DNA from: Granulicella sp.
GTDB taxonomy: Bacteria; Acidobacteriota; Terriglobia; Terriglobales; Acidobacteriaceae
DNA: 64,000 bases
Direction of reading: 5' to 3'
Assembly: GCA_025408425.1 (NCBI GenBank)
Contig: JANXYX010000029.1
Coordinates: 1 to 64,000 of the forward strand
A program made the position numbers and the translations under genes. This document shows positions 13,221 to 36,818 of the stretch, piece after piece. How positions within the stretch are numbered: the first letter of the stretch is position 1; every line of letters begins with the position of its first letter. The notes under the pieces were generated by a model. That model made no database searches. It saw only the letters and a list, made by a program, of their open reading frames with translations, and was not told the origin of the DNA.

Positions 13221-14081
13221 TTAGGTGTGACGGGCGCGAAACTTGTTCGCCAGCGCAAACTCATCACGCAGCTCAGGCGTCTTCAGGTTCTCGCGCACAT
13301 GCGCTAGCCTCTGCTCTAACGCCAGCAGCGTATCCGCAATCGCTTGCGTGTTCGTCATCGCCACATCGCGCCACATACTATAGGGACTCGCTCCCAGCCG
13401 CGTCGTCTCCCGAAGCGCCCGTCCGCCAATCTCTGCAATCTCAGGAGCGTCGCCAAACTTATCCTCCAGCAACGCTGCCAGTGCCGTCGACAGCATCTGC
13501 GGAAGGTGGCTCACCCAGGCACACAACTCGTCATGCCGCGCAGCATCCAGGTCCAGCGTCCGCGCACCAAACTTCCCCACCCACTCGCGCCACTCCAGTT
13601 CTAGTGGCGTGGCATTCTCGGCGATCGGGGTAAACAGCCACATCGCCCGCACAAACAAAAAGGCTTCCGCCTGTTTCGCACCGCCAGACTCCTTACCCGC
13701 CATCGGATGCCCCGGCAAAAACCTCGCTGTCGTCGGCTTGTTAAACAGCTCCCGCGCCAGCTGCGCAATCTCCAGCTTCGTGCTTCCCACATCTGTCACC
13801 AACTGGTGTGGCCCCAGCATTGGAGACAGCTTCTGCATCCAGTCTTTGATCGCCAGTACCGGCACCGCCAGCACCACCACATCCGCGTCGCGAACCCCGA
13901 TCCGCTCGCCAAATTGGTTGAACTGTTCCTCATTGATCGCGCCACGGTTCACGGCAGCAAGATACTCCGGACGACTCGCATCAACACCATTGATGTCGCC
14001 TTCAAATCCAGCCGCACGCAGGGCAAGGCCGATCGACGATCCGATCAGCCCTGTCCCAATAATGGTGATGCGTTCAATCAT
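13221..14081 (-). CDS. tyrA: Prephenate dehydrogenase
   Basis: The 286-residue enzyme oxidatively decarboxylates prephenate to 4-hydroxyphenylpyruvate for tyrosine. The NAD(P)-binding motif ITIIGTGLIGSSIGLAL is at 5-21, the mid-region has VLAVPVLAI and TDVGSTK, and the prephenate-binding stretch has LPGHPMAGKE. There is no ACT domain or fused chorismate mutase, so feedback control must lie elsewhere. It is the last gene of the aromatic operon; its start is 3 bp from the stop of the DAHP synthase gene, so the two are likely translationally coupled. Confidence 0.95.
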   Translation of the reverse strand: MIERITIIGTGLIGSSIGLALRAAGFEGDINGVDASRPEYLAAVNRGAINEEQFNQFGERIGVRDADVVVLAVPVLAIKDWMQKLSPMLGPHQLVTDVGSTKLEIAQLARELFNKPTTARFLPGHPMAGKESGGAKQAEAFLFVRAMWLFTPIAENATPLELEWREWVGKFGARTLDLDAARHDELCAWVSHLPQMLSTALAALLEDKFGDAPEIAEIGGRALRETTRLGASPYSMWRDVAMTNTQAIADTLLALEQRLAHVRENLKTPELRDEFALANKFRARHT

Positions 14082-14084
14082 CGC

Positions 14085-15104
14085 CTACGCAACCGTCCGC
14101 TCAACCACCGGAGCCAGCAGGCGCAACTTCGCGATCAAATCCTGTAACTGTTGTGGATACAGACTCTGCGCACCATCGCTCATCGCCTTATCCGGATTCG
14201 GATGCATCTCCATCAGCAACCCATCCGCGCCTGCAGCAACGCTGGCCAACGCCATCGGTGCAACCATGTCGCGGATCCCGATGCCATGCGAAGGATCGGC
14301 AAACACCGGAAGATGGGTCAGCTTCTTCAGCACGGGAATCGCAGAAATATCCATCGTGTTGCGGGTGTACGTCTCATACGTCCGGATGCCGCGCTCGCAC
14401 AGGATCAGGTCGTAGTTGCCGCCAGACAGAATGTACTCTGCGCTCAACAGCACCTCTTCAATCGTCGCCGAAATCCCGCGCTTCATCAGCACTGGCTTCC
14501 GAACATGCCCCAGCTCCCGCAGAAGGTTGAAGTTCTGCATATTCCGGGCGCCAACCTGGAAGCAATCGATATACGGCAGCATCAACTCGATCTGCGAAAT
14601 CTCCATCACTTCCGTAATCACCAGCAGTCCGGTCGCGTCGCTCACCTCGCGCAGCAGCTTCAATCCCTCCAGCCCCATGCCCTGGAAGCTGTACGGCGAA
14701 CTCCGCGGCTTGAAGGCGCCACCACGCAGAAACTGCGCTCCTGCAGCCTTCACAATCTTTGCGCTGGTCAGAATCTGCTCCCGCGACTCGACCGAGCACG
14801 GTCCAGCCATAATGGTGATCTCCTGGCCGCCAACCACCACGCCATTCGGGAACGTAATCTTCGTTCCCTCCGGACGGAAGCTCCGCCCAGCCAGCTTGTA
14901 TGGGGAAGATATCCGGTACGCGTCATGCACGCCCGGAAGAACCTTGAACTCCGCAACCTCAAAGTGGTCCGGCGTGCCCACGCCCGCAAGGATCGTCTGC
15001 GATGCGCCAGTTGTACGGTGAACGTTGAACCCGAGCTCAACCATCCGCTCGATTACCTGCTGTATGTTCTCTTCAGTTGCTATGCCCTGCATCGCGACGA
15101 TCAT
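14085..15104 (-). CDS. aroF: 3-deoxy-7-phosphoheptulonate (DAHP) synthase, type I-beta
   Basis: The 339-residue enzyme condenses phosphoenolpyruvate and erythrose 4-phosphate, committing carbon to the shikimate pathway. The first ~70 residues form the ferredoxin-like regulatory domain seen in Thermotoga-type enzymes; the barrel follows, with MAGPCSVES (about 99-107), RGGAFKPRSSPYSFQG (about 126-141), the LMKRG loop and the C-terminal metal-binding DPSHGIG. The N-terminal domain is where Tyr or Phe feedback inhibition acts in relatives. It lies between the chorismate mutase gene and tyrA in the operon. Confidence 0.95.
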   Translation of the reverse strand: MIVAMQGIATEENIQQVIERMVELGFNVHRTTGASQTILAGVGTPDHFEVAEFKVLPGVHDAYRISSPYKLAGRSFRPEGTKITFPNGVVVGGQEITIMAGPCSVESREQILTSAKIVKAAGAQFLRGGAFKPRSSPYSFQGMGLEGLKLLREVSDATGLLVITEVMEISQIELMLPYIDCFQVGARNMQNFNLLRELGHVRKPVLMKRGISATIEEVLLSAEYILSGGNYDLILCERGIRTYETYTRNTMDISAIPVLKKLTHLPVFADPSHGIGIRDMVAPMALASVAAGADGLLMEMHPNPDKAMSDGAQSLYPQQLQDLIAKLRLLAPVVERTVA

Positions 15105-15192: not shown

Positions 15193-15456
15193 CTAAACAT
15201 CTCGACGCTGCAACGTCCGCATTACATCCACAATGCGCTCGTACACATGCAAAATCTCCGCATCGGCAAGAGGCCCGGGATTGACCTTGCGAATATGCTC
15301 AAACACTGCCTGCTCACGCTTCGGCTCATACACCGGAAGCTCTGAGGTCCGCTTAAGCTCTCCAATCGCCCGTGCTGCCTCCGCACGCTGGCTGATAAGC
15401 CGAACAATCTGCTCATCCAACGCATCGATCTTGTCCCGCCAGTCGCTGATCTCCAT
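15193..15456 (-). CDS. AroQ-type chorismate mutase
   Basis: The 87-residue all-helical protein fits monofunctional AroQ chorismate mutase, which converts chorismate to prephenate. The signature is WRDKIDALDEQIVRLISQRA (about 6-25) followed by YEPKREQAVFEHI; the catalytic Arg and Lys positions of the family are present. It sits between trpA and the DAHP synthase gene. In bacteria with type I-beta DAHP synthase the mutase often forms a complex with, and feedback-controls, that enzyme; this is inference from neighbourhood. Confidence 0.92.
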   Translation of the reverse strand: MEISDWRDKIDALDEQIVRLISQRAEAARAIGELKRTSELPVYEPKREQAVFEHIRKVNPGPLADAEILHVYERIVDVMRTLQRRDV

Positions 15457-15568: not shown

Positions 15569-16330
15569 TCATACCCGCAGCCCTGCAACGAACTGCCCAA
15601 CCGCTGCAGCCGCCTCTTCTGCGGGCGTCTTCTCAATCAAGGCCACCAGCGCACTGCCGATAATTGCCGCATCCGCAAACTCACCAACCGCCTTCACATG
15701 CTCCGCATTCGAGATCCCGAATCCCACCGCAATGGGTAGCTTCGTAAACTGCCGCAACCGCGCCACCAGCTCCGAAGCATCGCCTGCAACCTTCTGCTGC
15801 GTCCCCGTAATTCCTACCCGCGAGATCGCGTACACAAAGCCCTGAGAGTTCGCCGCAATCGCCTTCAACCGGGCATCCGGACTCGTCGGAGCCGCCAGAA
15901 AGATCGGTGCCAGCTTATGCGCACGCATCGACTCCAGATACTCTCCAGCCTCTTCCACAATCATGTCCGTCAGCAGCACTCCATCCGCGCCAGCCTCAGC
16001 CGCCGCAGCACAAAACTTCTCCATCCCCATCCGAACCACAGGGTTCAGATACGAGAACAACACCAGTCCCGCCGACGGTCGCGCAGCGCGCAATTCCTTC
16101 ATCAGCCCCAGCACATCCGTCAGCCGAATCCCCCGCGCAACAGCCCGCTCACTCGCCCGCTGAATCACCGGTCCATCCGCCAGCGGATCGCTGAACGGCA
16201 CACCCAACTCAATCACGTCCGCGCCGTTATCAATCGCTGCCAACGCAATATCCCGAGTCGTTGCCAGATCCGGATCACCCGCCGTCAGATAAGCAACGAT
16301 TCCCGGCTTCGTTTCAAATTTAATCGCCAT
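15569..16330 (-). CDS. trpA: Tryptophan synthase alpha subunit
   Basis: The 253-residue TIM-barrel subunit cleaves indole-3-glycerol phosphate and passes indole to TrpB. The catalytic residues are in the motifs [19 protein letters not shown] (Glu and Asp) and DGVLLTDM; the phosphate loops [10 protein letters not shown] and IIGSALV are intact. Its start overlaps the trpB stop by 11 bp, so translation is coupled. It is slightly shorter than E. coli TrpA (268) but has all motifs. Confidence 0.97.
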
Positions 16331-17558
16331 GCGCCAGCGCTCCCTTAAGGTTCAGCTCTCGCGCCAGAATCCCCATGTCTTTATCACCCCGTCCTGACAA
16401 ATTCACCATCAACACATCCGTCTTCGCCATCGTCGGAGCCAGTCGTATCGCCTCTGCCACCGCATGCGCACTCTCCAGCGCTGGCAGTATTCCTTCCGTC
16501 CGCGCCAGCGTTACCGTGGCCTGCAGCGCATCCGCATCCGAGCACGAAACATACGTCGCCCGTCCAGAGTCATGCAACATCGCATGCTCCGGTCCCACAC
16601 TCGCATAGTCCAGCCCTGCACTCACGCTGTGCGTGCTCGAAATCTGTCCCGCATCATCCTGCAGCACGTAGCTATAGGTCCCCTGCAGCACTCCCGGAAC
16701 ACCGCCGCCTAACTTCTGAAACCGCGCCGCATGCTCGCCCAGCGCCGTCCCCCGCCCGCCCGCTTCTACGCCAATCAGCTGAACATTCGCATCCGGCAGA
16801 AACTCATAGAACGCGCCAATTGCATTCGATCCGCCGCCCACGCAAGCCACAATCGCAGCTGGCAGCTTCCCTTCCTGCTCCAGCACCTGCAATCTCGCCT
16901 CTTTACCAATCACCCGATGGAAGTTCCGCACCATCGTCGGGTAAGGATGCGCTCCCAGCGCACTCCCCAGAATGTAGTAACTCGTCCGCACATTCGTCAC
17001 CCAGTCCCGCATCGCCTCGGAGATCGCGTCCTTCAGCGTCGCACTCCCCCCGGAAACCCCACGAACCTCAGCACCCAGCAACCGCATCCGGTAGACATTC
17101 AGCTCCTGCCGCCGCATGTCCTCGTCGCCCATATAGATCACGCAATCCATGCCGAACAGCGCGCACACCGTAGCGGTCGCCACCCCATGCTGCCCTGCGC
17201 CCGTCTCCGCGATAATCCGCTGCTTCCCCATTCGACGAGCCAGCAATCCCTGCCCCAGAGCATTGTTGATCTTGTGCGCTCCCGTATGCAGCAGGTCTTC
17301 CCGCTTCAGATAGATCTTCGCCCCACCCAACTGCTCGCTCAGCCGTTTCGCAAAGTACAGCGGAGTAGGTCGTCCGCAGTAGTGATGCAGCAGCCCATCC
17401 AGCTCCGCATGAAACGCAGGATCAGCATCAGCCACCGCATACGCGGCCTCCAGCTCCTCCAGCGCGGCCATCAGCGTCTCTGGCACATACCGCCCGCCGT
17501 ACGCGCCAAACCGCCCCGCCACCCCAGTCACCGGATTCACTACTGTCGCTGCACTCAT
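16320..17558 (-). CDS. trpB: Tryptophan synthase beta subunit
   Basis: The 412-residue PLP enzyme condenses indole and serine to tryptophan. The signature [20 protein letters not shown] contains the PLP lysine, [10 protein letters not shown] and the phosphate loop GGGSNAIG follow, and the C-terminus has [12 protein letters not shown] start it at MSAATVV (17558), which has a GAGGAG SD at about 17564-17569; the longer frame from 17579 lies on the SD. It is the first structural gene of the aromatic operon, directly after the attenuator. Confidence 0.96.
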
Positions 17559-17596
17559 TCGCTTCTCCTCAAAATCCATGCCTTACACAAGACAAA

Positions 17597-17621
17597 AGCC
17601 GCGACAGGTTAGGTCGCGGCT
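17597..17621 (-). terminator. Attenuator terminator upstream of trpB
   Basis: On the minus strand AGCCGCGAC and GTCGCGGCT form a perfect 9-bp GC-rich stem with a 7-nt loop, followed by TTTTGTCTTG. It lies between the aromatic leader ORF (17670-17741) and trpB, about 50 nt after the leader stop, which is where a transcription attenuator belongs. Its 5' arm (GCCGC) can instead pair with GCGGC at 17683-17687 in the 3' arm of the leader hairpin. Confidence 0.75.
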
Positions 17622-17669
17622 CGTGTGGATATCGAATCAACTGAAATCTCAGCTATCTCTCAGATGAAC

Positions 17670-17741
17670 CTACTCCGCCGATGCCGCTACCGTGTCCCAG
17701 TAGCGGAAAGTAAACCAAAATCGGCTGGAGAAAGTCGTCAT
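17670..17741 (-). CDS. Aromatic leader peptide of the trpB operon (23 aa)
   Basis: This short ORF is too small for standard gene calling. ATG at 17741, TAG at 17672-17670, 23 residues, with FWFTFRYW in the middle: Phe at 4, 8, 10 and 12, Trp at 9 and 15, Tyr at 14. Seven of residues 4-15 are aromatic. Codons 13-19 form a hairpin, CCGCTAC/GTAGCGG (17700-17706 with 17684-17690), that contains the Tyr-Trp codons; the terminator follows. A ribosome stalled for charged Phe, Tyr or Trp tRNA would block this hairpin and free its 3' arm. The SD (GAAAG, about 9 nt upstream) is weak. The ORF and hairpins are seen; the regulatory role is inferred. Confidence 0.75.
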   Translation of the reverse strand: MTTFSSRFWFTFRYWDTVAASAE

Positions 17742-17847
17742 CTTGCTTTCAAAGATACACGCTACATCCATCCGCTGCAACCTCCACCCCAACACCCACT
17801 CCGCATCTCGCCCATTCACATCCTTGAAATATATGTGTCATATAGGA

Positions 17848-17875: not shown

Positions 17876-18025
17876 CAACTGTAAGCTCAGTTACGATTCC
17901 GTCAAATGCCCACGCATTCAACGGCAAAACGCAGCCGTCGGGATCAAATCTCCCTGACTCATGTAACTCAATCGTCCTCTGCGGAACTTCCCCGGCATTA
18001 CCGCATCCGGCAAGCGACCATTCCA

Positions 18026-18799
18026 ATGGCTTCACTTTCAACACCGCAATTCGATCCCGCAACCTTCCTCGCAAACGCTGGTCTCGGGCGCAAAATCGTT
18101 CAATTCAAAGCAAGATCCATCATCTTTTCCCAGGGAAGCCCTGCAGACGCCGTCTTCTATCTCCAGAAAGGCACCGCAAAGCTCACCGTCGTCTCCAAAA
18201 ACGGCAAGGAAGCCACCATCACCCTTCTCACCGCCGGAGACTTCGTCGGCGAGGAGTCCCTCGCAGCCATCGTCGGACTCCGCATGGCCACCGCCACCGC
18301 CACCACCGCATGCACTGCACTCATGATCGAGCGCGAAGAGATGATCCGCGTCATGCATCAGGAAAACACCTTCTCAGACCTCTTCCTCGCCTTTCTCCTC
18401 GCCCGCAGCATGCGCACCCAGGCCGATCTCGTCGACCAACTCTTCAACTCCAGCGAAAAACGCCTCGGCAGAATCCTCCTCCTCATGGCGGAGTTCGGAA
18501 AGCCCGGCATCCAGGAAACCCTCATCCCGCAGATCACGCAGGAGACCCTCGCCGATATGATCGGGACCACCCGCTCTCGTGTCAGCTTCTTCATGAATCG
18601 CTTCCGGAAGATGGGCTTCATCGAATACAATGGACGTATCCGCGTCCACAAATCCCTCCTCAACGTCATCCTCTACGACCAGCCCAATACCCCCCAGAAC
18701 GCCATCAGCGCATCCCTCCTTGGCGCCAGACTCAAAGAGTCAAAACCCGCCAATCGCGCAGCCAGAAAGATGAGCAAAATTGCACAGACTCCCAATTAG
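18026..18799 (+). CDS. Crp/Fnr family transcription regulator
   Basis: The 257-residue protein has an N-terminal cyclic-nucleotide-binding fold (about 20-140; IIFSQGSPADAVFYLQKG, then GDFVGEESLAAI) and a C-terminal winged helix (about 165-225; QETLADMIGTTRSRVSFFMNRFRKMGFIEY). There is no Fnr-type N-terminal Cys cluster, so it is not an Fe-S oxygen sensor of that type; the residues that bind cAMP in Crp are not clearly conserved. The start MASLSTPQ was chosen because residues upstream in the open frame look non-coding; there is no clear SD. A response regulator follows 54 bp downstream. Confidence 0.9.
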   Translation: MASLSTPQFDPATFLANAGLGRKIVQFKARSIIFSQGSPADAVFYLQKGTAKLTVVSKNGKEATITLLTAGDFVGEESLAAIVGLRMATATATTACTALMIEREEMIRVMHQENTFSDLFLAFLLARSMRTQADLVDQLFNSSEKRLGRILLLMAEFGKPGIQETLIPQITQETLADMIGTTRSRVSFFMNRFRKMGFIEYNGRIRVHKSLLNVILYDQPNTPQNAISASLLGARLKESKPANRAARKMSKIAQTPN

Positions 18800-36735: not shown

Positions 36736-36748
36736 GAAGAATGGTCGG
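36736..36748. repeat. 13-bp direct repeat at tRNA-Pro 3' end (candidate att site)
   Basis: GAAGAATGGTCGG, matching 33508-33520, covers the last bases of the tRNA acceptor stem, the CCA and eight bases beyond. tRNA 3' ends are common integration sites. No integrase is between the copies, so the element would be a remnant or mobilised in trans. Confidence 0.55.
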
Positions 36749-36818
36749 GACGACTAGATTCGAACTAGCGACCTCACCCACCCCAAGGGTGCGCTCTACC
36801 AGGCTGAGCCACGTCCCG
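36742..36818 (-). tRNA. tRNA-Pro (anticodon GGG), CCA encoded
   Basis: On the minus strand the acceptor stem is CGGGACG/CGTCCCG, the D arm GCTC...GAGC, the anticodon stem CACCC/GGGTG with loop TTGGGGT giving anticodon GGG, and the T loop contains TTCGAAT. ACCA follows the acceptor stem, so CCA is encoded. 77 nt in total. The 3' end forms one side of the 13-bp direct repeat with 33508. Confidence 0.95.

Follow-up and report, generated by a model that had tools for sequence, protein, structure and literature searches.

A predicted attenuator with phenylalanine, tyrosine and tryptophan codons upstream of trpB in Granulicella, and related leaders in Acidobacteriota

The ilvGMEDA and thr leaders of Escherichia coli illustrate how one peptide senses several amino acids of a branched pathway, in those cases the branched-chain amino acids or Thr/Ile and not the aromatic ones considered here. 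In the enterobacterial trp and phe attenuators (trpL, pheL and the pheST leader), regulatory codons stand in a leader peptide, a terminator is the point of control and a biosynthetic operon follows (PMC11802643), a layout shared by the element described below. Those attenuators are described for one amino acid each; the acidobacterial element carries Phe, Tyr and Trp codons together, is probably near-leaderless and has no Rfam match. The aroR leader of Corynebacterium glutamicum is also aromatic (Phe-Tyr-Phe) and also lies before a DAHP synthase (aroF) operon, but it is reported to respond to limitation of Phe and not of Tyr, and the review's account of it mentions no Trp codon (Neshat et al. 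2014, via PMC11802643). The uORFC-13-1 motif of Acholeplasma likewise combines an upstream ORF containing Phe with a terminator before aroF; it comes, however, from another phylum, has 24 representatives, occurs only before aroF and is presented in its description as a Phe element (PMC8632094). In Sinorhizobium meliloti, the leader-ORF ATG forms the very 5' end of the trpL/rnTrpL attenuator RNA, and the RNA may start close to the ATG here too; the S. meliloti leader is a Trp leader before trpE(G), whose RNA and peptide are described as acting in trans (PMC7298713). Acidobacteria form a large soil phylum, and according to a survey from 2010 hardly any predicted attenuator of these bacteria had an associated function (PMC2965389). 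The open-licence literature yielded no description of how Acidobacteria regulate the synthesis of aromatic amino acids, by attenuation or otherwise, which within open-licence papers only fits the remark of the initial annotation that this kind of regulation is undescribed there.

The locus lies on the minus strand of the window, by which the whole 64,000-nucleotide stretch of Granulicella sp. DNA is meant. The genes behind the leader had been taken for an operon serving the common pathway, tryptophan and tyrosine, and profile matches agree with this:

16320-17558, minus strand: trpB (TIGR00263), with GAGGAG in front of the probable start codon ATG 17558
15569-16330, minus strand: trpA (TIGR00262)
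15193-15456, minus strand: chorismate mutase (TIGR01807)
14085-15104, minus strand: DAHP synthase (TIGR01361 and PRK08673)
13221-14081, minus strand: prephenate dehydrogenase (tyrA), matched by models for this enzyme (one at 1.3e-46), none of which reaches its curated cut-off

An alternative in-frame trpB start at ATG 17579 (ORF 16320-17579, minus strand) is less likely, GAGGAG being found only ahead of 17558. A divergent gene of the Crp/Fnr type lies upstream (17906-18799, plus strand). Elsewhere, a tRNA gene (36745-36818, minus strand) is the sole Rfam match at the gathering threshold within the window.

The leader itself is composed of the following parts:

17670-17741, minus strand: leader ORF MTTFSSRFWFTFRYWDTVAASAE, 23 codons from ATG 17741 to TAG 17670, kept in 34 of 35 same-genus genomes
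17720-17730, minus strand: 5' strand of an outer helix, CTCCaGCCGAT, from folding and covariation analysis of 34 leaders
17698-17706, minus strand: arm 1 (CCGCTACTG), overlapping the Arg-Tyr-Trp codons, from folding and covariation
17684-17692, minus strand: arm 2 (CGGTAGCGG), the partner of arm 1, from folding and covariation
17679-17691, minus strand: putative antiterminator 5' strand GGTaGCGGCaTCG, from complementarity, its core invariant and without covariation
17673-17682, minus strand: 3' strand of the outer helix, ATCGGCGGAG, from the same analysis of 34 leaders
17637-17667, minus strand: middle hairpin TCATCTGA...TCAGTTGA between leader stop and terminator, a genus-level helix of the 34-leader alignment
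17612-17623, minus strand: putative antiterminator 3' strand, which is also the terminator 5' arm, CGAGCCGCgACC
17596-17622, minus strand: predicted intrinsic terminator, a hairpin with a T-rich tail behind it, from a terminator call and covariation

The ORF, hairpin and terminator that had been noticed initially could be recovered. The seven aromatic residues reported between positions 4 and 15 are F4, F8, W9, F10, F12, Y14 and W15, and the hairpin said to cover the Tyr-Trp codons pairs 17706-17698 with 17692-17684. The terminator is called at 17622-17596, about 50 nt past the leader stop, with 10 pairs, seven of them GC, and a tail resembling TTTTGTCTTG; the alternative pairing then suspected is present between GGT.GCGGC(a)TCG (17691-17679) and CGAGCCGC.ACC (17623-17612). 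The outer helix, absent from that annotation, joins codons 4-8 to the final codons ahead of the stop, and the last residues of the peptide are encoded by arm 2 and the outer helix. The folding energy of this leader corresponds to z = -6.77, none of 200 dinucleotide shuffles being as stable. The start-codon region (17743-17738) is also complementary to TCATCT at 17667-17662, directly after the stop, a pairing that might block the start of the leader once the RNA is complete. The corresponding helix between AAGATGA and TCATCT has 92% of its cells paired in 34 leaders, yet no covariation, and is not claimed.

Conservation of the ORF and hairpins in relatives had been named as the check on the initial reading, which it did not refute. 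The same-genus sample comprised 37 genomes including this one; trpB was matched in 36 and the DNA upstream of it was examined in 35, the two left out being one genome without a trpB match and one whose match began only at residue 108. Peptide, hairpins and terminator are found upstream of trpB in 34 of the 35, the single exception being locus L035, and both the leader hairpin and the terminator covary. The typical peptide reads S-R-F-x-F-x-x-R-Y-W-x-x-(V/I)-A-A-S-A-E, and only a few are divergent (L017, L018, L025-L027). In 21 genomes of the order and class that belong to other families (L036-L056), no leader was found before trpB; one of these genomes (G053) has the element ahead of DAHP synthase instead. 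A chance match to the RYW anchor in L050 and a hydrophobic ORF in L040 were not counted as leaders.

Base changes on both sides of a pair were counted in three alignments, of which the 34-leader one was not fitted to the structure. Across its two leader helices, middle hairpin and terminator, both partners had changed in 10 of the 36 pairs (27 such cells), neither this number of cells nor the score being reached in any of 500 shuffles. The corresponding figures are 9 of 19 pairs in 91 leaders and 17 of 24 pairs in 69 leaders, neither cell number nor score being reached by any of 500 shuffles in either case, in alignments which were fitted to the structure and whose counts therefore lean towards it. 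The terminator helix covaries in both the 34- and 91-leader alignments. One example is CCGCTAC/GTAGCGG versus CCGCTAT/ATAGCGG.

The antiterminator behaves differently. Within Acidobacteriaceae (34 and 91 leaders), its covariation scores are at or below those of the shuffles; its core, GCGGC with GCCGC, cannot covary because it is nearly invariant, and the four-pair core GCGG:CCGC is formed in 89-90 of 90 rows. The distribution of the rare changes in the 91 leaders is uneven: non-consensus bases amount to 2/360 in the core of arm 2 and 0/364 in that of the terminator 5' arm, against 22/360 in arm 1 and 10/364 in the terminator 3' arm. The least-varying arms are those that would serve two helices, arm 1 and the 3' arm serving one each. 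The GCGGC core is read in phase 0 in 70 of 75 trpB leaders and in all 35 aroK leaders, and in phase 1 or 2 in 10 of the 18 DAHP synthase leaders. In family f5 the arms have been replaced (GAGTGG, CCCACTC and GAGTGGG in L318 and L327; GGTGGG in L326), and they are still complementary in all three leaders, where the antiterminator forms in the truncated RNA with or without a ribosome. Arm asymmetry, a core kept across reading frames and the replaced arms of f5 together support the putative antiterminator. What counts against a switch is that in the same three f5 leaders the leader hairpin and the antiterminator are not mutually exclusive. An invariant complementary triple is also reported for actinobacterial trp attenuators (PMC1262725). 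The f5 leaders (L318, L326, L327) keep the leader hairpin and the FTYR codons, though their terminator/antiterminator sequence differs.

A promoter-like pair, which the initial annotation did not include, adjoins the ORF:

17775-17780, minus strand: -35-like box TTGCAG; the pair scores 7 of 12
17752-17757, minus strand: -10-like box TATCTT, after a 17-nt spacer, ending 10 nt before the leader ATG; a start site is predicted close to this ATG

Similar pairs (TTGnnn/TAnnnT-like, 16-18 nt apart) precede the leaders in general, with mean best scores of 7.1 for trpB, 7.6 for aroK and 8.2 for DAHP synthase leaders (of 12), compared with 3.5-3.9 in shuffled sequence. Among leaders scoring at least 8, the distance from the end of the -10 box to the ATG is 9-10 nt in 18/18 trpB, 6/18 aroK and 8/15 DAHP synthase leaders, within a range of 4-17. 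An AGGA, GGAG or GAGG motif at -18 to -4 is seen in only 10 of 129 leaders. With no Shine-Dalgarno motif in most of them and an ATG that follows closely on the -10 box, most leader ORFs are probably near-leaderless, and the RNA would start a few nt from the ATG. A promoter at 17905-17878, the sole match of a simple scan, was set aside for the TTGCAG-N17-TATCTT pair adjoining the ORF.

Codon content was analysed in 129 leaders, after removal of five duplicates (L057, L058, L059, L082, L083) and of L066, a leader that encodes F, Y and W but has at most three aromatic codons. The leader ATGs of this set were chosen by rule, and some starts, mainly of aroK leaders, are ambiguous. All three aromatic residues occur together in 75/75 trpB, 35/35 aroK and 12/18 DAHP synthase leaders. 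In the folding model used, a ribosome is placed on each codon in turn, 13 nt from the A-site codon are masked (an assumed footprint) and the RNA ends with the terminator 5' arm. In 123 of the 129 leaders the antiterminator core then attains a probability of 0.8, and in six it does not; in these 123, the arm needed for antitermination is left free by a ribosome modelled as stalled on the conserved F-x-(F/Y)-R-Y codons. Tyr is the last codon with the core at 0.8 or above in 104 of the 123, and the last run of high values begins at a Phe codon and spans at most eight codons in 81 leaders. Over the last six codons of the run, F, Y or W account for 437 of 724 codons, against 351 of 2389 outside, all three residues being inside these six codons in 98 of 123 leaders. 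With other footprints the aromatic enrichment stays (0.48-0.60 versus 0.15-0.18), whereas a fixed window holding F, Y and W, found in 104 of 129 leaders at 13 nt, is found in only 8-52 of 129 at 10-12 or 14-16 nt. Counted from arm 2, aromatic residues occupy codon -9 in 83%, -7 in 72%, -5 in 95% and -4 in 90% of leaders, a positioning which is partly geometric because the Arg-Tyr-Trp codons are arm 1 itself.

At equilibrium, the complete Granulicella leader prefers the terminator with a ribosome on F12 or Y14, and does not with one on F10. The model therefore needs co-transcriptional timing, with the antiterminator forming first. Truncated RNA free of ribosomes already favours the antiterminator (at least 0.5) in 15/75 trpB, 14/35 aroK and 3/18 DAHP synthase leaders, so that basal readthrough may differ between genes. 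The Phe codon nine codons upstream of arm 2 (here F10, 17714-17712, minus strand) is TTT in 101 of 103 leaders, as compared with 63 of 177 Phe codons in 13 genes of the window, and the Phe two codons further on is TTC in 35 of 38. This TTT bias may reflect slow-codon selection or an RNA motif UUUAC.

The element is not restricted to trpB. A covariance model built from the same-genus leaders (R1) finds two places in the Granulicella genome at E <= 1, namely the trpB leader and a second one (G000:C9:4176-4332, E = 1.7e-7), absent from the initial annotation, where a leader of its own, MSNNFQSVFFTLCYWCPTVARRSLRMHL, stands ahead of a shikimate kinase gene (aroK; NCBIfam 4.9e-32, below the model's curated cut-off). 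Among 299 genomes of the family, R1 has matches in 86, from 17 of 79 genera. Leaving out ten already known same-genus trpB-leader loci and G277, G308:C16 and G339:C197, 99 distinct matches were classified, of which 45 lie before trpB, 35 before aroK and 18 before DAHP synthase, some of the latter with another gene in between, and one at a contig end. A wider model from 91 leaders (R2) matches 153 of 298 family genomes, in 39 of 79 genera, at E <= 0.001; at E <= 1e-5 it has matches in 90 of the 349 genomes of the class, families f5, f7 and f96 included. Outside the Acidobacteriaceae, R2 matched 31 genomes, and loci were fetched for 20 of them. All 52 distinct R2 matches checked (E <= 3.2e-6, outside the R2 training set, in batches of 14, 14 and 25 with one shared) precede trpB, aroK, DAHP synthase or chorismate mutase, the last of these confirmed downstream of L177. 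Among 396 genomes of the phylum, the third model (R3, 69 rows) has matches in 39 at E <= 1e-5. Five of these, all checked, are from outside the class: four (G386, G415, G425 and G599; G415 is present twice, as L276 and L299, and counted once) have DAHP synthase or chorismate mutase downstream, and the fifth, G687, has a cysteine synthase. This last strong match, ahead of a gene that is not aromatic, counts against the reading as an aromatic attenuator.

Weak matches were rejected where both leader and pathway gene were lacking, which applies to L181, L191, L192 and L193 (E >= 1.3e-4), to L277-L281 (E >= 3.5e-5) and to L301, L303, L305, L306 and L307 (E >= 1.3e-5). L295 (2e-5) sits at a contig end and offers no downstream gene to judge it by. 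As the weak matches L302 (3.6e-5) and L304 (1.5e-4) look genuine, there is no sharp E threshold, and the R2 count of 153 in 298 at E <= 0.001 therefore includes some false matches. In a separate scan of 80 trpB loci, the full-length element was found in two MAGs, L197 (Granulicella sp.) and L196 (Acidobacteriaceae); the remaining 78, many from other phyla, gave no full-length match. All these leaders are related and some nearly identical, so that the counts do not represent independent events.

The layout had been read from the outset as one of ribosome-mediated attenuation. It holds up well in this wider comparison, since the ORF is conserved, as are the leader hairpin and the terminator, both with covariation, and since in the folding model the regulatory codons are so placed that a ribosome stalled on them would set arm 2 free. 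With a probability of about 0.88, the element would be a ribosome-mediated transcription attenuator that jointly senses the charging of Phe, Tyr and Trp tRNAs, one of an Acidobacteriota family that occurs, depending on the lineage, before trpB, aroK, DAHP synthase or chorismate mutase. RNA polymerase would start directly upstream of the leader ATG, and a ribosome would begin on the near-leaderless ORF. Shortage of Phe-, Tyr- or Trp-tRNA is predicted to stall it on the F-x-(F/Y)-R-Y-W codons, with arm 1 covered and arm 2 free. Arm 2 could then pair with the terminator 5' arm once this is made, so that no terminator would form and trpB-trpA-chorismate mutase-DAHP synthase-tyrA would be transcribed. 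When all three are plentiful, the ribosome would reach the stop and cover arm 2 (in trpB leaders), or arm 2 would rejoin arm 1 (in other leaders), and transcription would end. Sequence comparison and modelling support a mode of action like that of the classical trp and phe attenuators, and a finding wider than first stated.

The alternative that deserves most weight, although we consider it unlikely, is an attenuator sensing mainly Phe and Tyr, the Trp codon being kept only because UGG tops the leader hairpin. Phe and Tyr codons do outnumber Trp in each leader class, 6 of the 18 DAHP synthase leaders of Acidobacteriaceae lack at least one of F, Y and W, as a rule Trp, and many f7 and f30 leaders read FAFTYRF, without Trp. 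This restricted sensing is harder to reconcile with the presence of all three residues in each of the 75 trpB and 35 aroK leaders, and with a second Trp codon (W9) located outside the inner hairpin in the Granulicella leader. Codon content likewise bears on the proposal of a constitutive terminator with a translated short ORF which only sets the basal level or aids reinitiation at the first gene. Leader genes near structural genes have been suggested, Acidobacteria included, to raise translation by reinitiation (PMC4833913). Here, however, about 110 nt with the terminator among them separate the leader stop from trpB, and codon content and position are conserved together with the RNA arms, which makes this proposal improbable.

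Conserved hairpins and a terminator ahead of biosynthetic genes would equally suit a metabolite riboswitch or a T-box without translated leader. The open frame with its aromatic codons is kept while the hairpin bases covary, and no Rfam riboswitch, T-box or leader family is matched: at the gathering threshold, the window and 10 related loci gave no match to the element, and at E up to 10 one search returned a single unrelated snoRNA match and another none, with no amino-acid leader, T-box or riboswitch in either. A riboswitch or T-box thus appears very improbable. Least credible of all is a chance ORF with chance hairpins: ORFs of this size turn up frequently in any sequence, but conservation in 34 of 35 genomes, covariation and recurrence before four kinds of pathway gene leave almost nothing for coincidence to explain.

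Beyond attenuation at single loci, we lean towards a broader picture in which an unnamed, probably old RNA family of Acidobacteriota constitutes a pathway-wide aromatic regulon. Its near-leaderless attenuator would read Phe, Tyr and (mostly) Trp charging jointly, would have moved among the operons of trpB, aroK, DAHP synthase and chorismate mutase, and could be retuned by codon change, as the Cys-codon leader before a cysteine synthase in one genome may illustrate; the terminated RNA or the peptide might also act in trans. One attenuator type at the entry, middle and branches of the shikimate pathway, with the end products read from one peptide, would be a simple way to adjust a branched pathway to several products. 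The family also supplies differing arm sets and reading frames for testing the antiterminator model, and its covariance model could be added to Rfam.

The cysteine-associated leader lies at L331:2523-2693 (minus strand; G687, contig C10:230922-231092) and is related to the others (R3 E 1e-8). Its peptide, MTRKLYYCHYWCACTFASPAGG..., has three Cys codons close together, and the gene that follows encodes a cysteine synthase (L331:1554-2507, minus strand; best NCBIfam match cysM, 1.7e-109, just below the cut-off). It is possibly the same type of attenuator tuned to cysteine.
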